The notes under the pieces: model-generated
Told to the model about the DNA's origin: nothing
Database searches by the model: none
Seen by the model: the letters and a program-made list of their open reading frames with translations, nothing else
Part shown: positions 5,702 through 48,366 of the stretch, piece after piece
Numbering within the stretch: position 1 is the stretch's first letter
Layout: the number at the start of each line of letters is the position of its first letter
Program-made: the position numbers and the translations under genes
NCBI GenBank assembly: GCA_903906315.1
Contig: CAIVJW010000320.1
Coordinates: 1-50,964 of the forward strand
DNA length: 50,964 bases
Direction: 5' to 3'
From: an uncultured delta proteobacterium
GTDB lineage: Bacteria; Myxococcota_A; Polyangia; Polyangiales; Polyangiaceae

Positions 5702-8700
5702 TCAGACGATGCGAACGCGCGCGCCCTGGTCGAGCTGTGCGCCGACGCGCTGCTCGATCTCGGCGAGCAGGAGCCGGAGCTCCTCGCGCGTACGGACGTC
5801 GCGGTTCTTGAGCGAGAGGGCCACGCGCACGACGCGCTCGGGCTTCACCTCGAGGTCCGCGAGCTTGTCGTCGAGGCGGTCGGGGGCGCCGTCCTCCGCC
5901 TGGTGCAAGCGCACCGGGAACCGGTCGCGCAGGTCGACCAGCGGCGGCGCAATGGCGTCGGCCGTCGTGTCGATCATCGCCTCCGTGATCGGCCGCAGCA
6001 CGTGGTGCGAGGCGTCCGCGTCGAGGCGCTCGAAGCCGGCGCGACCGCGGATCCGCGCGCGCGCCGCCTCGGCGGCCTGCTGCTGCTGACCGAGGAGCGA
6101 GAGCCGCGCGGCCTTGTACGCCTCGCGTACCGTCTTCACCGCGGCCTCGATCGATCCGAGGTCGCGCCAGGGCCGCTCGGCGGCGAGCTGGTCGCGGAGC
6201 GCCTTCGCCTCGGCCGCGAGGTCGCCCGCGTCGCCGACGGCCTCGAGCTGCACGAGCTCGTGGTCGCGCGCGGAGGCCGCGTCGCGGACCGCGTCGATGG
6301 CGGCGTCGGTGAGCTCGACCCGGAGGACGTTGAGGAGCTGCAGGCCGTCGCGCAGCGTGTCGAGGTGCTCCTTCACGGCCGCAACCGTGGGGGCGACGTG
6401 CCTCGACCGCTGGCAGGCCTCGAGCGCGCGCACGAGCTTCTCGAGGGCCGGCGGCGTCGGCGGCCGGCCGGGCAGCCGCTCGAGCTTCGTCTCGACTTCG
6501 CGCAGGCGCTCGCGCTGCGGCGCGAGGTGGTCGTACACGGCGTTCGCGATCGGGTCGTCGTCGCGATCGATGTCGACCCCGAGGTAGTCCTTGAACAGGT
6601 TGCCAATGGCGATGCGGTCGCGCCCCGTGATGCCCGTGTCGCCCGCGGGGAACAGGTCCGCGTGCCGGAGCTCGCGGTCGCTGCGGAAGAAGTCCTTCGC
6701 GCCCGGGTCGCGGACGGAGGTGATCTTCGCGCCGCTCTGCGGGCGGACGTGGATCTTGCCGCCGCGCACGAGCCCGACGAGGCACGCCTTCACCACGTCG
6801 GCCGGGTAGCCGTACGGCGGCCGCGCGAACGTCGAGAGCAGCGTGCCGCCGGCCGATCCCTTGTTCTTCTCGATGAACGCGAGGATGCGGCTCGGCACCT
6901 GCCCCGAGCACGTCGCGACGTACTTGCCGGCGTCGAGCGAGAGCACGCCGAGGCCGGCCTCGAGGAACTTGGTCGACGGCCCCGAGAGCGTCGGCTCGAG
7001 CAGCTGCGCGAGCTCGCCTTCGGAGATCGCGATCTCGACGAAGTGCGGGTAGAGCTCGGGCAGGACCCGGTTGCCGATGCCCGTGGCCGCGCTGGCGAAC
7101 GCGGCGCCGTGGTCGCGCGGCTGGATCGACCTCCCACGGAAGTAGATCGTGCCGTCGACGAAGGCCGCGCCGATCGCGGCCTCGAGCTTCTTGTCGAGGT
7201 CCTCGGCGCGCGCCTCTTCCTCGATGAGGAGGCGCTGCTTCTCGCGCACGAGCGTCGCGCGGATGCCGTCGTTCCGCGTGATCATGCGCCGGCTCTTGCA
7301 GAGCTCGCGCGCGAGGCCGTCGACGGTCCCGTGATCGCCGACCACCCACACGACGCGATCGCGGAGCGCCTCCTCGCCGCTGCGCTTCACCCACGCGGGC
7401 GACCGGCGCTCTTCGGCGTTCACGAAGCGGAAGTCGAGCGTGACGGTCGCGTCGTCGCGCCCCTGCGAGAAGCGCACGTCGCTGGCCTGGCGGCCGTCGC
7501 TGTAGAAGGCCGTCCACGCGAACGGCCGCCCGCGGAGCTTCGCGCGCTCCGCGCCCACGAGCAGCTCGCCGAGCTTCTTCTGCACGAGCTCGCTCACCTG
7601 CTCGGGCGTGACGCCGACGTCGTCGCGGTCGCGCTGCCAGTCCTGGCCCGCGGACGACTGGATCTTGTAGCCCTGCTTCTCGGTGTACCCGCAGAGGTTC
7701 CGCTCGCGCAGCGCCTCGAGCGCCTCGCCGACGGCCTGCTCCTGGCTGCCGCGGCCGAGCCGGTCGTAGAGGCACGACGCGACGAGCTTGGGCGTCGTCG
7801 GCATCGTGTCCTGCAAGAGCTCGAGCAGCGCGACGGCCTTCGCGACGCGCCCCTGGAGCGTGTCGCGCCCGACCTCGGCGTGGATGCGGCCGAGCGTGGC
7901 CTGCACGTCGGAGTCGAGCGCCGTGTGCTGGACCTCGTAGATCGCGTCGAGCGTGACGAGCTCGCCGACGTCGCGGTCCGCGAGCGCCTGCTCGCGCCCG
8001 AGGTGCGGGGTGCCCCCGCCGCGAAAGAGCTCGCCGAGCAGCTGGAGGAGCCCGCGGATCGCGTGGTCGTCGCCCTGGATGCGCGTCGACCGCGTGCGCA
8101 GCGCCGAGGTGATCTGGAGCAGCAGGTCCACGTGCCCCGGCAGCATCGGGTAGACCTCGAGGAAGTCCTCCTCGGTGATCTCCTCGCACTTGAAGCCGTG
8201 GAGCTTGAGGTCGCTCCGGTGCTCCTCGAAGAGCGCGCGCAGCACGGCCTCCTTGCCCTGCGCCTTCTTGAGCAGGCGGCGGTGCACGACGTCGCGGATG
8301 TTGGTCGCCGCGAGGTGCACGCGCAGGCGCGCCGGGAAGCGCTCCTTCAGCTTGCCGATGGGCGTCGCCTCGCTGGCCTCCTCGAGCTTCTCCTGGCCCG
8401 TGGCGAGGAGCCACGCCGCGCCCTTCAGCCGCGTCCCGAGCGCCGAGACGAACGACTGGAGCTTGAGCATGCGGCTCTGGTCCTGGTGGACGTACTGGCT
8501 GACCTCGTCGACGACGAGGAAGAGCGTCTTGCCGGGCGCGCGCACGGCGAGCATCGCCTCGATCGCCTTCACCGCTTCCTCGGCCGAAGTGCCGATACCC
8601 GTCTGCTGCCCGGCGCGGCTGTCGAGCCAGGTCGTCGGCTCCGGGAACCGGTCGGGCCGCAGGACGTGCATCACGTGCGAGAAGTCGTCGTCGGCCTGCT

Positions 8701-9346
8701 GCCGGCCCTTCGCCTCGGACCACGGGCGCTCGAGCGTCGTCTGCGCGGCGGTGAGGAACTCGGGCCACTCCTCGTCGCGCTCGAGCTTGAGCTCGTGGTC
8801 GGCGACGAGGTTCGACGTGGAGCAGTAGTCGAGCCGGACCTGAAGCTGCCGCACGATCGCCGAGGGGATGTGCTCGTCGTCGCGCGCGACGCCGCCGATG
8901 TCGAACACGACCGCGATCGGATCGATCGGCCCGCGCATCGTCGTCCACGCCTCGCGGAGCTCGTGCGCGAGCGGCGAGTCATCGCGCCGGAGCAGCGCCT
9001 CGGCGAGCGGCGTCCCATTGGGCAGCGTCTTGCCGTCGAGCGCGAGGCCGAGGAGCTTCGCGAAGCTCGACTTGCCCGACCCGTAGAACCCCGAGATCCA
9101 CGACGCGGGCAACTCGGGCCCACCGGGCTTCGTGCGCTCCGCGTGAAGGGCGCGGCAGAAGTGGACGAGCTGCTCGTGGATGCCGTGCTTCAGGCGTTTC
9201 GACTGCGGGGAACCCTCGGGGTAGCCGCCCGTGATGATGTACTCGGAGACCTCGCTCTCGAGCTTCTTCGGGCTCTGCTCGTGGAAGTAGACGACGGGCG
9301 GGATGTCGCGCGTGACGTCGTGCTCGAACAGCTCGCGGATCTTCAT
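5702..9346 (-). CDS. brxC: BREX P-loop ATPase BrxC
   Basis: A 1214-residue protein, the length expected for BrxC. The N-terminus resembles known BrxC (MKIRELFEHDVTRDI, then a SEYIITGGY segment). Walker A GFYGSGKS lies at 86-93 and Walker B LFLVVDEVSQY at about 275-285. The middle resembles a winged-helix/AAA region and residues about 900-1150 are rich in predicted coiled coil. BrxC is a core BREX component, thought to be a large ATPase that works with PglX and BrxB. ATG at 9346 lies 12 bases after the brxB stop. A 1374-codon open frame on the opposite strand spans the whole gene and is an antisense artefact of GC bias. Confidence 0.94.
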   Translation of the reverse strand: MKIRELFEHDVTRDIPPVVYFHEQSPKKLESEVSEYIITGGYPEGSPQSKRLKHGIHEQLVHFCRALHAERTKPGGPELPASWISGFYGSGKSSFAKLLGLALDGKTLPNGTPLAEALLRRDDSPLAHELREAWTTMRGPIDPIAVVFDIGGVARDDEHIPSAIVRQLQVRLDYCSTSNLVADHELKLERDEEWPEFLTAAQTTLERPWSEAKGRQQADDDFSHVMHVLRPDRFPEPTTWLDSRAGQQTGIGTSAEEAVKAIEAMLAVRAPGKTLFLVVDEVSQYVHQDQSRMLKLQSFVSALGTRLKGAAWLLATGQEKLEEASEATPIGKLKERFPARLRVHLAATNIRDVVHRRLLKKAQGKEAVLRALFEEHRSDLKLHGFKCEEITEEDFLEVYPMLPGHVDLLLQITSALRTRSTRIQGDDHAIRGLLQLLGELFRGGGTPHLGREQALADRDVGELVTLDAIYEVQHTALDSDVQATLGRIHAEVGRDTLQGRVAKAVALLELLQDTMPTTPKLVASCLYDRLGRGSQEQAVGEALEALRERNLCGYTEKQGYKIQSSAGQDWQRDRDDVGVTPEQVSELVQKKLGELLVGAERAKLRGRPFAWTAFYSDGRQASDVRFSQGRDDATVTLDFRFVNAEERRSPAWVKRSGEEALRDRVVWVVGDHGTVDGLARELCKSRRMITRNDGIRATLVREKQRLLIEEEARAEDLDKKLEAAIGAAFVDGTIYFRGRSIQPRDHGAAFASAATGIGNRVLPELYPHFVEIAISEGELAQLLEPTLSGPSTKFLEAGLGVLSLDAGKYVATCSGQVPSRILAFIEKNKGSAGGTLLSTFARPPYGYPADVVKACLVGLVRGGKIHVRPQSGAKITSVRDPGAKDFFRSDRELRHADLFPAGDTGITGRDRIAIGNLFKDYLGVDIDRDDDPIANAVYDHLAPQRERLREVETKLERLPGRPPTPPALEKLVRALEACQRSRHVAPTVAAVKEHLDTLRDGLQLLNVLRVELTDAAIDAVRDAASARDHELVQLEAVGDAGDLAAEAKALRDQLAAERPWRDLGSIEAAVKTVREAYKAARLSLLGQQQQAAEAARARIRGRAGFERLDADASHHVLRPITEAMIDTTADAIAPPLVDLRDRFPVRLHQAEDGAPDRLDDKLADLEVKPERVVRVALSLKNRDVRTREELRLLLAEIEQRVGAQLDQGARVRIV

Positions 9347-9358
9347 CGTGGTCGCCTG

Positions 9359-9997
9359 TCAGGGGTAGATGCGAGGGCGGTAGTCGCGGTCGGGCGCGAG
9401 CTCGCCCATGAACGAGAGCTCCGTCGTGCCCGTGCGCTCGCCCGGGTAGAGCAGGACGACGGGCACGTTGCGGGTGTGTCCGTCGATGTGCTTGAGCAGG
9501 CCCGACGTGCGGTAGAACGGGTACAGCGCGCCGGCACGGCCGATGATCGCGAGGGTGCGGTCGCCCTCTGCGGGGTGCTTGTCGACGAAGTCGCCGATGA
9601 GCGCGGCGATGTCGGCCGCGATGCCGCTCGGCCCCTCGAGGTGCGGCGCGATCTTCTCTTTCAGGTGCGCGAGCGCGCGGGCCGGGTCCTTCGCGTAGAG
9701 GCGCCGCTCGCGCAGGGCGAGGTTCGAGACGAAGTCGTCGCCGGCGCGCCGGAGCCGATCGAGCAGGAGCTTCTGCAAGGAAATCGGCAGCACGACCCAC
9801 CCCGAAGCGCGTAGCTCGTCGGCGAGCCGCTGCACGTGCCGCCGCAGCTCGAGCTCCTCGCGCGGCTTGTAGGGCACGATCGCGAAGCGGTAGTTCCGCA
9901 TCGTCGAGATCTGCGGGCCGCCGTCGGCGAGCAGGTCGCGCTTGAGCGCGGCGATCGCGTCGGCGACGTTGCTCGGCGGAAACAGGGGGCTGGTCAT
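9359..9997 (-). CDS. brxB: BREX protein BrxB (DUF1788)
   Basis: A 212-residue DUF1788-type protein beginning MTSPLFPPSNVADAIAAL. It has typical BrxB features: an RFAIVPYKPREELELRRHV segment near the N-terminus, a GDFVDKHP helix, and the C-terminal VPVVLLYPGERTG block followed by FMGELAPDRDYRPRIYP, which closely matches the end of known BrxB proteins. BrxB is a core BREX component of unclear biochemical role, co-occurring with BrxA and BrxC. The ATG overlaps the brxA stop (ATGA). A longer in-frame extension upstream reaches into brxA but lacks family resemblance, so the internal ATG was chosen. Confidence 0.92.
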   Translation of the reverse strand: MTSPLFPPSNVADAIAALKRDLLADGGPQISTMRNYRFAIVPYKPREELELRRHVQRLADELRASGWVVLPISLQKLLLDRLRRAGDDFVSNLALRERRLYAKDPARALAHLKEKIAPHLEGPSGIAADIAALIGDFVDKHPAEGDRTLAIIGRAGALYPFYRTSGLLKHIDGHTRNVPVVLLYPGERTGTTELSFMGELAPDRDYRPRIYP

Positions 9998-10803
9998 CGC
10001 GTCACCTCGGCCCAGCTCGTGAGGTCGGGCGCGGCCCAGTCGGCCTCGTAGAGGTTGCCCATGCGGCGGTACGTGAGGCCGGGCAGCGCGCGCAGGCGCT
10101 GATCGAGCGCGCCGCCCTCGAGCCCGACGGACGCGAGGTAGGCGTTCTCGAACAGCGTGCCCTCGAGCTCGAGGCCGCGGAGCAGGTGCAGGAGGTAGCC
10201 GAGCGCGAGGTCCGTCACCTTCGGCAGCGGCAGCGTGCGTGGGTCGCGCTTGGGCGAGACGAGCCCCGCCTCGGACCCGGCCGACAGGAGCTTCGACGCG
10301 AACTGCACCGCCGTCGCGGGCGCCCAGCGGCTGCCCTCGGGCTGGCTCTGCACCCACTGCGTGACGACGTCGCGGTCGATGGTCGGGCGCGGGCCGCCGC
10401 GCCGGTCGACGAGGTAGCTGCCCGTGAAGCGGCGGTAGAGCGGGTCGGTCAGCTGCACGTGCCAGTGGACGACGACCTGCCGCGTGGCCGCGTCCATCGT
10501 GCGCCAGTGACGCAGCACCTCGAGCGCCTCGGGGTATGCGTCGTACCGGGCCGAGCAGTACGCGAGCAGTGACTTCACGCGCGCCGAGCTCTTCCCGCCG
10601 AACCAGCGCTGCTCGAACGCCAGCGCGTTGCGCTCGGCCGCGGGCACGCTCGGGTCGACGTTGGTGAAGTACGCGCGCGACTCCTCGATGCCGAGGGCGA
10701 GCCGAAGCAGGCGCGTGTGGACGACGGTCTCCTCCGACCTTCGCGGCGCGGGCTCGACCGACGCGGGCACGGCGGCGCCCACGGGCTCGGAAGGCGCGGC
10801 CAT
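9994..10803 (-). CDS. brxA: BREX protein BrxA (DUF1819)
   Basis: A 269-residue DUF1819/BrxA protein. Recognisable segments are ESRAYF near the N-terminus, ALAFEQRWFGGKSSARVKSL, a YPEALEVLRHW block, DPLYRRFTGSYL, and a C-terminal MGNLYEADWAAPDLTSW. BrxA is a small DNA-binding helical protein in E. coli-type BREX. The chosen ATG at 10803 overlaps the brxE stop by one base (TGATG). A start nine codons further upstream exists but would lie inside brxE. The first roughly 25 residues are low-complexity Ala/Pro and may not be folded. Confidence 0.9.
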   Translation of the reverse strand: MAAPSEPVGAAVPASVEPAPRRSEETVVHTRLLRLALGIEESRAYFTNVDPSVPAAERNALAFEQRWFGGKSSARVKSLLAYCSARYDAYPEALEVLRHWRTMDAATRQVVVHWHVQLTDPLYRRFTGSYLVDRRGGPRPTIDRDVVTQWVQSQPEGSRWAPATAVQFASKLLSAGSEAGLVSPKRDPRTLPLPKVTDLALGYLLHLLRGLELEGTLFENAYLASVGLEGGALDQRLRALPGLTYRRMGNLYEADWAAPDLTSWAEVTR

Positions 10804-11378
10804 CACGACGGCAGCCGAACGAACGGGCACGCGTACTGCTCAGACAGCGGCACCAGGGCGGCCGCAAGGCGGCGTACGAGCGCGTCGGGCGCAGCCGGCG
10901 GCGGGCCGAGCACCTCACGGCCGCCGGGCACGACCCGATGCTCGACGGGGCCGCCGTCGGGCAGCGCGAGGTACCGCTCGATCGCCCCGCGGTCGAAGGT
11001 GTCGAACGCAGGCAAGGCCGGGAGCGCCTCGTGGGGGCGGCGCTGCTCGCGGCGGTGCTGCGCGAGGCGCTCGTCGAGGCGCTCATCGAGCTCGAAGCCG
11101 AGGTGGAAGATCGTCCTGACCTGGTCGGCGTCCGTCATCCCGCGGCGCGCCCGGTCGTCGACCCGCCGCGCCGCCTCGCGCACAGCCACGAGCGAGGCCC
11201 ACGCGTGCGTCTGCGGCAGGAGCCGCTTCAGGAGATCGCCACCGCCGGCCTCGTCGACGAGGTCGGTCGCCCAGAACCCGAGCCGCGGGGGCTCCGACCG
11301 GCCTTCCCCGGCCCAGGCGACGGCGAGCTGGAGGGTGAGGATCGCGTCGAGCGTCGGGATGGGGATGGGCGTGGTCAT
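10803..11378 (-). CDS. brxE: BREX type 6 protein BrxE, first gene of the operon
   Basis: A 191-residue protein starting MTTPIPIPTLDAIL. Its sequence pattern (QLAVAWAGEGRSEPPRLGFW, TDLVDEAGGGDLL, FHLGFELDERL) matches what I recall of BrxE, the marker of BREX type 6. Its role is unknown. It heads the operon, and its stop overlaps brxA. An in-frame upstream ATG at 11438 would add 20 residues, but the ATG at 11378 gives the conserved N-terminus. The operon promoter should lie in the roughly 330 bases upstream; no clear consensus box stands out in this GC-rich stretch. Confidence 0.82.
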   Translation of the reverse strand: MTTPIPIPTLDAILTLQLAVAWAGEGRSEPPRLGFWATDLVDEAGGGDLLKRLLPQTHAWASLVAVREAARRVDDRARRGMTDADQVRTIFHLGFELDERLDERLAQHRREQRRPHEALPALPAFDTFDRGAIERYLALPDGGPVEHRVVPGGREVLGPPPAAPDALVRRLAAALVPLSEQYACPFVRLPS

Positions 11379-44671: not shown

Positions 44672-45841
44672 ATGCGACGACGCACGCCCGGCTGCGCGAT
44701 CCTCGTCGCCGTGATCGGCGCCCTGGTCGGCGGCTGCTCGCCCCCCGTGCGCACGACGTGCACGCCCGCGGGGACGGCCTGCGCGCCCGACGAGCGGCGC
44801 GTCGCCTCCGCCCGCGCAACCCACTGGCCGATGTTCCGGCACGACGCCGGCCACACGGGCGGCAGCCCGGCGAGCCAGCCGACCACCGGCGCGCTCGCGT
44901 GGGCGTTCGACACGAAGAGCGAGATCTGGTCGTCCCCGGCGATCGACCGCGAGGGCCGGATCTACTTCGGAACGATCGATCGGCGCCTCTACGCCCTGTC
45001 GCCCGAGGGCAAGGTCGACTGGAGCTTCGAGCTCGAGGGCAGCGTGGGCTCCTCGCCCGCCGTGTCCGACGCGGGCGTGGTCTACGTGGGATCGTTCGAC
45101 GGCCACCTCTACGCGATCGAGGCCGGGCGCCTGCTGTGGCGGGTCCCGGTGAAGAACTGCGCGTTCTCGTCGCCCACGCTTTCGCCGGACGGCACCGTCT
45201 ACGTGGGGTCGAACGCATGGCGCGTGTTCGCGGTAGGCCCCGACGGCGTCATCCGCTGGCAGCGCCCGACGGGCGCCGACGTCGCCACGTCCCCGGCGGT
45301 CCTCGACGACGGAGCTCTCGTCGTCGGATCGGACGACGCCTTCGTGTACTTCCTCGGTCGGGACGGCTCGCTGCGACGCCGGTTCCAGACTCGGGGGCCG
45401 GTCCGCTCCTCGGCCGCCGTGGCGGCGGACGGGACGGTCTACGTGGGATCCGACGACGGCAGGCTGTACGCGATCGCCCGCGACGGCGAGGTCCGCTGGT
45501 CGTTCGAGGCCAAGGCCCCGATCCAGTCCTCCCCCGCCATCGCGCCCGACGGGACCGTCGTGTTCGGCTCGGCGGACAAGGCCGTCTATGCGCTTTTCCC
45601 CGACGGCCGCCTGCGCTGGCTCGTGGTGACCGGAGGCGCGGTGTCGTCGTCCCCCGCGATCGCGGCCGACGGCACGGTCTATGTGGGATCCGACGACGGA
45701 TCGGTCCACGCGATTGGCATGGACGGCCGGGTCCGCTGGGCGCGCCGGACGGGAGGCGCGGTGTTCTCGTCCCCCGCAATCGCGCCCAATGGCATGGTCA
45801 TCGTCGGATCGACCGACGGCCGACTCTACGCCTTCCGCTGA
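44672..45841 (+). CDS. PQQ-like beta-propeller lipoprotein
   Basis: A 389-residue exported protein with lipobox LVGGC (Cys22). It holds about eight blades of the form SSPAI..DGTVYVGSDDG.LYAI, each with a WxF-type outer strand (for example DVRWSF), characteristic of PQQ/YWTD-type propellers of the BamB-like group. No PQQ-binding or dehydrogenase residues are evident, so it is probably a binding or scaffold protein at the cell surface. The repeats are near-identical in DNA as well as protein (ACGGTCTACGTGGGATCC), suggesting recent repeat exchange. The start follows the TlpA-like style of signal (MRRRTPGCAILVAV). Confidence 0.88.
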   Translation: MRRRTPGCAILVAVIGALVGGCSPPVRTTCTPAGTACAPDERRVASARATHWPMFRHDAGHTGGSPASQPTTGALAWAFDTKSEIWSSPAIDREGRIYFGTIDRRLYALSPEGKVDWSFELEGSVGSSPAVSDAGVVYVGSFDGHLYAIEAGRLLWRVPVKNCAFSSPTLSPDGTVYVGSNAWRVFAVGPDGVIRWQRPTGADVATSPAVLDDGALVVGSDDAFVYFLGRDGSLRRRFQTRGPVRSSAAVAADGTVYVGSDDGRLYAIARDGEVRWSFEAKAPIQSSPAIAPDGTVVFGSADKAVYALFPDGRLRWLVVTGGAVSSSPAIAADGTVYVGSDDGSVHAIGMDGRVRWARRTGGAVFSSPAIAPNGMVIVGSTDGRLYAFR

Positions 45842-45972: not shown

Positions 45973-48366
45973 ATGCGCGTCCACCTCATCGGGGCCGATC
46001 TGGAGGAGAACCTGGCGCTCGGGATCCTCGCGGCGGTCGTCGAGCGGCTCGGGCACACCGCCCGCATCCTCGCGTTCAACGACGACTCCATGATCGACGC
46101 CGTCGCGCGCCGCGCCCTTGCCGGGGCGCCCGACGTCATCGGGCTCTCCATGCAGTTCCAGCACCGCGCGGCCGAGTTCCAGGCCCTCGCGCGGCGGCTG
46201 CGCGCGCTCGGCTTCCGCGGGCACCTCACCGCGGGCGGGCAGCTCGCGACGCTCGCGTGGCGCGAGACGCTCGATCCGGCGCACGGGGTCGACACCATCG
46301 TGCTCCACGACGGCGAAGAGACCCTCGCCGAGCTGCTGGGCGCGATCGAGCGGGGGGCGCGCCTCGCGGACGTGCCGGGGCTCGCGCTGCGCGCCGACGA
46401 CGGCGCCCCGATCCGCACCGCCGCGCGACGGCTACTCGACGACCTCGACGCCGTGCCGTTCCCTCGACGCTACCGGCCGCACAGCCTCCACCTCGGGGTG
46501 CCGTTCATCCCGATCATGGGGGGCCGCGGCTGCTGGGGCCACTGCAGCTACTGCTCGATCGTCGCGTTCTATCGCGACGCGATCGACGCGGGCGGCGGCC
46601 GCGCTGTGCGCGTGCGCAGCCCGGAGAACGTCGCGGCCGAGATGGCGCTGCTGCTCGAGAACGCCGGCGGACGCGCGATCTTCTGCTTCCACGACGACAA
46701 CTTCGTCTTCCCGAGCGAGAAGCGGTCGCTCGACCGCCTGCGGGCGATCCGCGCCGCGCTCGATGCGTACGGCGTCGGCGAGGTCGCGCTCGTCGGCAAG
46801 GCCCGGCCCGACTGCGTGACCGCGTCGCTCGCGCGCGCGCTCGCCGACCTCGGCGTGGTGCGCCTCTACCTCGGCGTCGAGAACGGGTCGACGACCGGGG
46901 GCGAGCACCTCGGCCGCGGCAGGCAGCAGGCGCGCGTCGGCGAGGCGCTGGCCGCGTGCCGCGAGGCGGGCATCTTCGTCTGCTACAACCTGCTCGTCTT
47001 CGAGCCCGACGCGACGATCGACGACCTCCGGCAGAACGCGCGCTTCATCCGCGACCACGCCGACTCGCCCGTCAATTTCTGCCGCGCGGAGCCGTATTTT
47101 GGGACGATTCTGCACCGGGCGACCGCCGCCCGGCAGGAGCTCGGCGGCGGCGCGCTCGGCTTCAACTACCGCATCGCCGACGACCGGGTCGAGCTCTGCT
47201 TCCGCATCTGCTCGGCCGCGTTCCGCGAGCGCAACTTCGCCCCGAACGGCGTCGCGAACCGCGCGATGGGCCTCGGCTACGCGGCGAAGATCTTCGAGCG
47301 ATTCCACGGCGGGCCGAGCGCCAGGGAGCTCACGCGGCGCGCCTGCGCGCTGACGCGGCGGATCTCGCTCGACACCGCGGCGCACCTCGAGCGTGCGATC
47401 GCGCTGGCCGAGCAGGTCGCCCTCGAGGACCGCGACACGGTCGAGCGCGAGACGGCGCTCCTCGGCCTCGCGATCGCGACCGCCGACCGCCGCCACCACG
47501 AGGAGCTCGACGAGCTCCTGGGGGACCTGGACGCCCGGGCGACGCGCGTGCGCGAGCGGCCCACGCCGGCGCGCCGGCCGAGCCCCAGCTTCCAGGAGCT
47601 CAAGGCGAGCCTCGCGCTCGGCGTCACGCTCGCGTTCGCGCTCGGCGCGGCGGAGGGCTGCGGGAAGGTGCAGACGGTCGACCCCGCCCCGGGCGACACG
47701 ATCGGCGACGCCGGTACGGTCGTCGATCCGGCCCCGTGCGACACCATGCCGTGCGACCCGCCGCCACCGGACGCGGGCGCGGGCGGGATGACCGGGATCG
47801 ACCCGGCGCCCTACGACGCAGGCGGAGCCGGCGGAGCGGGCGGCATGACGACGACGGTGGTCGACCCTCCGCCGCCGGACGCGGGCACGGGCGGCAGCGG
47901 CGCGGGCGGGGGGATCGGCGGCAGCGGCGGCGCGGGCGGCAGCGGCGGCGCGGGCGGGATGATCGTGGATCCTCCTCCGCCCGACGGCGGCATGAGCGCC
48001 GTCGACCGCGACGACCCCGACCGCCTGGCGGCAATCGCGGCGCCCGCCGTCCGCCTGCGGCTCGTGGACCAGTGGACGGACACCTCGACGACCGCGGCGG
48101 CGCGCACCGAGGATCTGGCCCTCTACGCGCCCCCGAGGCCGCGCCTCGAGGCGCGTCACGAGGGCGCGCGCGTCCGGGTGAGGGTCCACGGCACGCCCGC
48201 AGCCGTATCGACGCGCTGGGAGGCCGAGGGCGACCTCGAGGGCGACGGTCTCGAGGTGCTCTGGCGGCCGGACGGGCCGCACGACCGCGTGCGCGTCGCG
48301 GTCCGGACGCGCGGGGGCGTCGCGGTGCTCTCGATCGGCTCGGCCGACGCGACCACCGAGGCGTGA
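45973..48366 (+). CDS. B12-binding radical SAM protein with lipobox-like segment and repeat tail
   Basis: A 797-residue fusion. Residues 1-160 form a cobalamin-binding-like domain (VHLIGADLEENLALGILA, DVIGLSM, GLALRADDG). The radical SAM cluster is C187-x3-C191-x2-C194 (GRGCWGHCSYC), followed by FCFHDDNFVFP and GVENGSTTGG, which is normal for this group. Residues 538-563 (PSFQELKASLALGVTLAFAL then GAAEGC) resemble a signal or lipobox region. Residues 565-675 are repeats of VDPAPxDxxPCD and VDPPPPDAG with GGxGG spacers, and 680-797 is a beta-rich domain. rSAM enzymes modify peptides or cofactors; the tail looks extracytoplasmic and could be a fused substrate. An unnoticed gene boundary is possible, but no stop separates the parts. 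Confidence 0.8.
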   Translation: MRVHLIGADLEENLALGILAAVVERLGHTARILAFNDDSMIDAVARRALAGAPDVIGLSMQFQHRAAEFQALARRLRALGFRGHLTAGGQLATLAWRETLDPAHGVDTIVLHDGEETLAELLGAIERGARLADVPGLALRADDGAPIRTAARRLLDDLDAVPFPRRYRPHSLHLGVPFIPIMGGRGCWGHCSYCSIVAFYRDAIDAGGGRAVRVRSPENVAAEMALLLENAGGRAIFCFHDDNFVFPSEKRSLDRLRAIRAALDAYGVGEVALVGKARPDCVTASLARALADLGVVRLYLGVENGSTTGGEHLGRGRQQARVGEALAACREAGIFVCYNLLVFEPDATIDDLRQNARFIRDHADSPVNFCRAEPYFGTILHRATAARQELGGGALGFNYRIADDRVELCFRICSAAFRERNFAPNGVANRAMGLGYAAKIFERFHGGPSARELTRRACALTRRISLDTAAHLERAIALAEQVALEDRDTVERETALLGLAIATADRRHHEELDELLGDLDARATRVRERPTPARRPSPSFQELKASLALGVTLAFALGAAEGCGKVQTVDPAPGDTIGDAGTVVDPAPCDTMPCDPPPPDAGAGGMTGIDPAPYDAGGAGGAGGMTTTVVDPPPPDAGTGGSGAGGGIGGSGGAGGSGGAGGMIVDPPPPDGGMSAVDRDDPDRLAAIAAPAVRLRLVDQWTDTSTTAAARTEDLALYAPPRPRLEARHEGARVRVRVHGTPAAVSTRWEAEGDLEGDGLEVLWRPDGPHDRVRVAVRTRGGVAVLSIGSADATTEA

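Follow-up and report, generated by a model that had tools for sequence, protein, structure and literature searches.

Why would an enzyme expected to act in the cytosol end in a tail that looks destined for export? The question is raised by a gene in the 50,964-nucleotide contig CAIVJW010000320.1 (assembly GCA_903906315.1) of an uncultured delta proteobacterium of the Polyangiaceae; this whole stretch of DNA is called the window here. At 45973–48366 on the forward strand, one unbroken frame of 797 amino acids (aa) encodes an enzyme (residues 1–527), an export-signal-like segment, a series of repeats, and a folded end domain. An earlier reading made from the letters alone (the sequence-only reading) had noticed this joined frame and proposed that a radical S-adenosylmethionine (SAM) enzyme may bring its substrate along with it, a precursor-like gene having fused to the enzyme gene. 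That proposal is supported by our analysis. We consider it likely that a cobalamin-dependent radical SAM enzyme and the protein that it modifies, which resembles an envelope lipoprotein, are encoded here as a single chain; in some relatives, such a tail has a gene of its own. The parts of the window gene are as follows.

45973–48366, forward strand: whole gene, B12-dependent radical SAM enzyme with an export-like, repeat-bearing tail, 797 aa (full-length orthologues 42–61% identical)
46006–46338, forward strand: B12 (cobalamin)-binding domain, residues 12–122 (Pfam PF02310, E 9.6e-15)
46522–47046, forward strand: radical SAM domain, residues 184–358 (Pfam PF04055, E 1.6e-14)
46531–46554, forward strand: CxxxCxxC (C187, C191, C194), ligands of the [4Fe-4S] cluster, invariant alignment columns
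47170–47553, forward strand: C-terminal helical region closing the enzyme part, about residues 400–527 (AlphaFold2 helices; predicted local distance difference test, pLDDT, mostly 86–98)
47584–47661, forward strand: export-signal-like leader, residues 538–563, with a basic stretch before it, a hydrophobic run and an [A/G]-Cys end at C563 (conservation; matching leaders of partner genes)
47680–47991, forward strand: repeat region, residues 570–673, six DPxPxD copies with Gly/Ala spacers, proposed modification sites (shuffle test, genome-wide specificity)
48079–48351, forward strand: C-terminal immunoglobulin (Ig)-like beta domain, about residues 703–793 (AlphaFold2; hhalign to the partner domain of clade D)

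The tail is present in cis in 62 of 100 sampled relatives. Among the sampled loci, a tail-less set of 22 is defined by enzymes having neither a leader-bearing tail nor the C terminus of a Geobacter-like group (the PIPY clade, described below). At 17 of these 22 loci, a separate nearby open reading frame (ORF) encodes a hydrophobic leader, with Cys as its last residue, and then the motif, and such an ORF was found at none of the 81 cis loci and none of the 15 PIPY-type loci (0 of 96 together). An eighteenth tail-less locus, L117, also has a partner, which the strict pattern overlooked; the pairing at L068 depends on a partner located on another contig. The sequence-only reading had advised a search for stand-alone tails beside radical SAM genes, which are thus present, and had counted homologues ending near residue 530 against a genuine fusion. 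Such homologues do occur, but at their loci the tail is encoded close by.

The partners follow one design: a signal-like leader, a Cys, VDPxPPPxxC or EMAPTP, and often an Ig-like domain. No stand-alone partner scored above cut-off against Pfam or NCBIfam. Four examples are given here.

L059, 8790–9128, reverse strand: 113 aa, 12 bases past the enzyme gene; contains CDPMPPP and CDPMPAP
L145, 3787–4401, forward strand: YGVVDPMPTP and YGVVDPMPPP
L140, 5042–5755, forward strand: VDPVPPPLQC plus an end domain
L055, 11112–12122, reverse strand: AEMAPTPI plus a related end domain

CDPMP[AP]P was found in precisely three of 60 genomes, those with the corresponding enzyme subclade, and because it is unlinked to the enzyme gene in one of them, the association is not one of mere proximity. 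In tail-less clade D, the partner gene lies directly upstream of the enzyme; its domain gave strong matches in only 5 of the 60 genomes, adjoining a clade-D enzyme every time. At L061, two differing stand-alone VDPMPPP partners (7984–8505 and the end of 8513–10960, both on the reverse strand) are adjacent to each other downstream of a single enzyme. Tail-less enzymes L117, L126, L127, and L140 end in [ST]E[LIR]LPxP, and partners L058, L060, L061, and L062 begin with L[ML]PEVLPxP; this is possibly a shared recognition sequence.

Is the motif more than the product of a biased composition? The Asp/Pro repeats pointed out in the sequence-only reading hold up: D[PM]xPx[DG] occurs 123 times in the 30 linkers of the window clade, against a mean of 5.7 (maximum 15) in 300 composition-preserving shuffles of orthologous linkers. 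By shuffling, 1.3 copies of DPLP were expected in another fused clade, where 43 are present, and 6.2 copies of E[MA][AVMI] in a third set, where there are 33. The number of copies varies from 0 to 10 per linker. DNA coding for DPPPPD[AS]G was found 13 times in the 60 genomes, each time within a tail of this enzyme family (13/13), and zero times in the reversed control; the window's own 8.79-Mb genome has two occurrences, both within this tail. The earlier reading had itself raised a random linker as an alternative; a random Pro/Asp linker common to myxobacterial lipoproteins is ruled out by these pattern controls and shuffles. Motif type also follows enzyme clade (VDPPPPDAG, DPLPPP, or EMAPxP). 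In a tree of 100 enzymes, built with a quick search and with 35 weakly supported branches, the window clade comprises 30 rows, all fused, with a support of 100. The cis and trans states are clustered on the tree and require at least two changes. Tail and partner labels were assigned from sequence by rule and by eye, and two rows labelled "none found" (L126, L033/L056) later proved to have partners.

Comparison of the sequences shows these enzymes to be one B12-radical SAM family paired with proteins composed of a basic and hydrophobic leader, [A/G]C, a linker with [D/E]xxP, and often an Ig-like or other folded domain, encoded either by a nearby gene or, as in the window, as a fusion to the C terminus of the enzyme in which the motif is multiplied. 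Most simply, this would be an enzyme that modifies a protein destined for export, the two being encoded apart in some lineages and as one chain in others. With its cis tails and trans partners, the family has a dedicated substrate encoded with or beside the modifying enzyme, as is the case for ribosomally synthesized and post-translationally modified peptides (RiPPs). Our literature search gave no match for this family or for any radical SAM enzyme joined to its own precursor, and the enzyme–tail family is not matched to any named family or publication that we found.

The fusion itself is real and of long standing. Approximately 30 enzymes, inside the window's order and outside it, share the complete architecture at 42–61% identity over the full length, and the fusion is also intact in an orthologue from a 9.5-Mb genome of five contigs. 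Around 47560–47600, where it had been suggested that a stop might have been missed, there is none in frame, and the orthologues are uninterrupted too. The ratio of nonsynonymous to synonymous substitution rates (dN/dS) in close pairs was 0.10–0.50 for the linker, 0.05–0.48 for the end part, and 0.11–0.34 for the enzyme; in the pair L013/L086 the boundary was set early, so the end part there takes in the repeats. Because the values for the tail are well below 1, we conclude that it is translated and constrained. An assembly error or a missed stop is ruled out by the retention of the fusion in many genomes and by this purifying selection. No conserved neighbor gene was found in 38 neighborhoods of fused members, and none for the window gene either; a lone gene holding everything is what an enzyme–substrate fusion predicts.

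The lipobox-like segment ending in GC was borne out in part. It is hydrophobic, and C563 is invariant in 23 orthologues. In 56 of 57 cis tails, A or G directly precedes the Cys (position -1), and in 51 of them the region before the hydrophobic stretch has a net positive charge. Position -3, however, is mostly A, P, or V instead of L, and the window reads AAEGC. A bacterial lipoprotein has an N-terminal signal peptide and a lipobox, [LVI][ASTVI][GAS]C, and the window segment, which is internal, has neither. Trans partners do open with lipobox-type leaders (e.g., "..ALAGC" in L062). The sequence-only reading had viewed the tail as a leader plus core peptide; partners with leader, Cys, and motif exist, but the leader resembles an export signal more than it does a classical RiPP leader, and a modified envelope protein fits better since trans partners are often approximately 200–370 aa long and lipoprotein-like, with a folded domain.

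The beta-rich end domain that had been described is predicted confidently as seven strands, with a pLDDT of about 90 in the full chain and 85 when folded alone (AlphaFold2). Foldseek returned weak matches to Ig domains, all with E >0.01. A match to DUF4440 (E 0.0055, below cut-off) was taken as chance, given the Ig-like beta domain in the AlphaFold2 model. By hhalign, the cis end domain of the window clade is related to the trans-partner domain of clade D (E 1.6e-5, probability 79%), which in turn is related to the domain of Gemmatimonadota-type partners (E 7e-12).

What kind of enzyme is joined to this tail? As had been read from the sequence, it is a B12-binding radical SAM enzyme: both Pfam domains are present, and C187, C191, and C194 are invariant in alignments of 19 and of 23 homologues. 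The N-terminal B12-binding domain, the radical SAM domain with CxxxCxxC, and the fold place it in class B (cobalamin-dependent), with the catalysis of that class, dependent on cobalamin and SAM and usually a methyl transfer, predicted. The helical part at about residues 400–527 is also present in tail-less relatives, whose proteins stop shortly after it. No named NCBIfam radical SAM family (ApyD, HpnR, BchE, MgmA, rSAM_ocin_1, or other) passes its curated cut-off; the best match is ApyD (NF050148), with 97.5 bits over residues 9–398 against a cut-off of 750 bits. Four other family members likewise fall below every NCBIfam cut-off. Among the matches listed in a plasmid search, there were only generic B12-radical SAM proteins at ≤30% identity.

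Methylation of unactivated carbons is the commonest reaction of B12-radical SAM enzymes, and ring contraction in oxetanocin biosynthesis is catalyzed by OxsB. By profile, the nearest solved structure is that of OxsB; by fold, the nearest are those of OxsB and MgmA. OxsB (PDB 5ul2-4; profile E 7e-21) is thus the closest relative of solved structure, and acts on a small molecule, unlike the protein substrate proposed here. MgmA, the methyl-coenzyme M reductase glutamine C-methyltransferase (PDB 9ccb), has the same B12-binding and radical SAM domains as the window enzyme (Foldseek E 6e-19, TM-score 0.71 by target length, approximately 18% identity). It C-methylates a glutamine within a protein, and its cleft is wide enough to take a peptide in extended form; unlike the window protein, it has no tail, and its substrate, McrA, is separate and unrelated (PMC11796369). 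ApyD, the B12-radical SAM beta-C-methyltransferase of the RiPP aminopyruvatide, makes beta-methyl-Tyr and thus acts on a ribosomal peptide, as we propose for the window enzyme. However, it has a RiPP recognition element (RRE), a multi-enzyme cluster, and a precursor with a GYLYD motif to which it is not fused (PMC11117315).

In the mechanism that we propose, the flexible tail would fold back into the open active-site cleft of the enzyme, where SAM and cobalamin chemistry would modify each DPxPxD repeat, most likely by methylation of an unactivated Asp or Pro carbon. The enzyme is inferred to modify the tail, with [D/E]xxP as the probable modification site. C-methylation of Asp/Glu or of a Pro is a first guess with about an even chance of being right, made by analogy with MgmA and ApyD because B12-radical SAM enzymes mostly methylate unactivated carbons. 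The internal export-like segment would then send the modified tail through the inner membrane, as suggested by the positively charged region upstream, the A/G at position -1, and the trans partners with similar N-terminal leaders. The tail would be released or lipidated at C563 after crossing, and the enzyme half would remain cytosolic, each molecule yielding a single product or a few. A modified protein may be what results, because several of the substrates have large folded domains. Placing the tail behind the enzyme would ensure that modification precedes export.

We know of no borosin with an export-like segment or a folded envelope domain. Borosins such as OphMA otherwise resemble the fused form, with enzyme and substrate in one chain, an auto-modified core, and split versions (type IV). 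Their catalytic domain, however, is a SAM-dependent alpha-N-methyltransferase fused to the precursor and not a radical SAM enzyme (PMC11285071); that of the window protein is B12/radical SAM. A likeness in export is offered by bufferins and other RiPPs modified by multinuclear non-heme iron-dependent oxidases (MNIO), in which substrates of a metalloenzyme carry Sec signal peptides, some of lipoprotein type, and may be whole proteins. These differ from the window system in the enzyme (MNIO, DUF692, with a partner protein), in their Cys motifs, and in their separately encoded substrates. In MNIO systems, premature export of signal-bearing substrates must be prevented until they are modified (PMC12452194), a need that fusion behind the enzyme would meet by holding back the tail.

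We lean toward regarding the family as a widespread, undescribed radical SAM system in which an exported envelope protein is modified at repeated [D/E]xxP motifs, fused to its enzyme in some lineages with the signal internal. If so, enzyme and substrate would form a self-contained unit that carries out a new protein modification. The system would be the radical SAM equivalent of the fused borosins, acting on a cell-envelope protein, and a natural example of an enzyme whose tail has to be fully modified before export. A further prediction would be that bacteria with large secretomes make surface proteins of a new, modified class. The cis and trans versions of one motif provide a directly testable pairing for identifying the chemistry.

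Several observations limit the reading as a fused, exported substrate or weigh against it. The leader lies in mid-protein with an imperfect lipobox (AAEGC), and its Cys is absent from three cis relatives (L118, L125, L150). Four tail-less members are unpaired: L066, where the contig end cuts the locus, and L113, L131, and L151, on long or isolated branches. Three window-clade members (L024, L095, L099) lack a strict DPxPxD copy. In the full-chain AlphaFold2 model, the repeats are disordered (pLDDT <50) and were not placed in the active site, so docking is only proposed. The window end domain is linked to the Gemmatimonadota-type partner domain indirectly; direct hhalign gives 5%. For the 15-member deep PIPY clade, neither leader nor partner gene was found, and its tail may be different and minimal. 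Modification, export, and cleavage of the tail are all predicted.

How else might the tail be explained? It could be a membrane or cell-wall anchor only, its hydrophobic segment and Pro/Asp/Gly linker tethering to the envelope an enzyme whose substrate is another molecule. Envelope proteins typically have a hydrophobic segment preceded by positive charge, a low-complexity linker rich in Pro and Gly, and a folded domain at the end, and the PIPY clade does without such a tail. We nevertheless consider an anchor unlikely, as it leaves unexplained why tail-less enzymes have the leader–motif–domain unit encoded separately nearby, why the motif comes in repeats and is found nowhere else in 60 genomes, and why its type tracks the enzyme clade. 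It is very unlikely that the tail is an unmodified, cis-acting part of the enzyme (a pseudosubstrate, or a metal- or substrate-binding arm), as in the CUAEP-tail and RCCLKC-tail radical SAM proteins. NCBIfam names such families with conserved tails (NF040546, NF040542; weak matches here), and the Geobacter-like clade and four Gemmatimonadota-type members terminate in short conserved motifs (PIPYxVFK, STELLPxP), but such an arm is ill-suited to an export-like leader, 0–10 motif copies, an Ig-like end domain, and stand-alone versions. Hardly credible is the production of two proteins from one frame, in which the tail would be an ordinary lipoprotein made from its own internal start and tied to the enzyme by gene overlap alone: a Met right before the hydrophobic stretch in some orthologues (L009 "MTMSAALSATLALSATAC", L031) would make the tail alone lipoprotein-like, but the sole start codon near and upstream of the window's leader is a GTG at residue 526, which lacks a Shine-Dalgarno sequence, and a dedicated enzyme–substrate pair would remain anyway.

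Substrate fusion thus remains our preferred reading, and the family in which it occurs is broad. Close relatives (E ≤1e-60) were found in 18 of 59 related genomes, several with the entire architecture at 54–59% identity, and 80 loci were obtained by scanning genome contigs, with the complete tail present at most of the top-ranking ones. Close enzyme relatives are present in 26 of 284 sampled species of the window's phylum (approximately 9%); others belong to further phyla. The PIPY clade (L112, L114, L115, L119, L123, L128, L130, L133, L137–L139, L143, and L146–L148) branches deeply within the same enzyme family, with hosts that include Geobacter relatives, Nitrospinae, Methanoperedens, Brocadia, and Acidobacteria, among others. 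Its conserved C terminus resembles DLFGxxPxPIPYxVFKxRLAExK, without leader and repeats. Planctomycete, Verrucomicrobia, and other relatives (L129, L132, L124, L125, L141) have cis tails with HMCEMMMEP, HMCEMAPFP, or HMCEAAPPP, motifs whose abundance of Met, Cys, and His recalls metal-binding sites; by eye, some of these tails appear to contain a TonB-C/AgmX-like domain, which Pfam did not confirm.

Upstream of the window gene, at 44758–45841 on the forward strand, a gene looks like a pyrroloquinoline quinone (PQQ)-type beta-propeller lipoprotein (MRRRTPGCAILVAVIGALVGGC..., with repeated GTVYVGSDDG); it is not conserved beside the enzyme. A close orthologue (L007/L097) has an in-frame TGA within the radical SAM part and is either a pseudogene or the result of a sequencing error. 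The window's genome encodes two more fused paralogues with different tails, one with DPPPPP/DPLPPP repeats (L002) and one that is Thr-rich and ends in CPEFAIAE (L003). The latter (L003, 1114–3387, reverse strand) and the L095 frame from 2380 represent a distant paralogue type, 28–32% identical to the window enzyme, with a Cys-ending leader, a Thr- or Gly-rich linker, another domain, and a C-terminal CPE[FM]xIxE.
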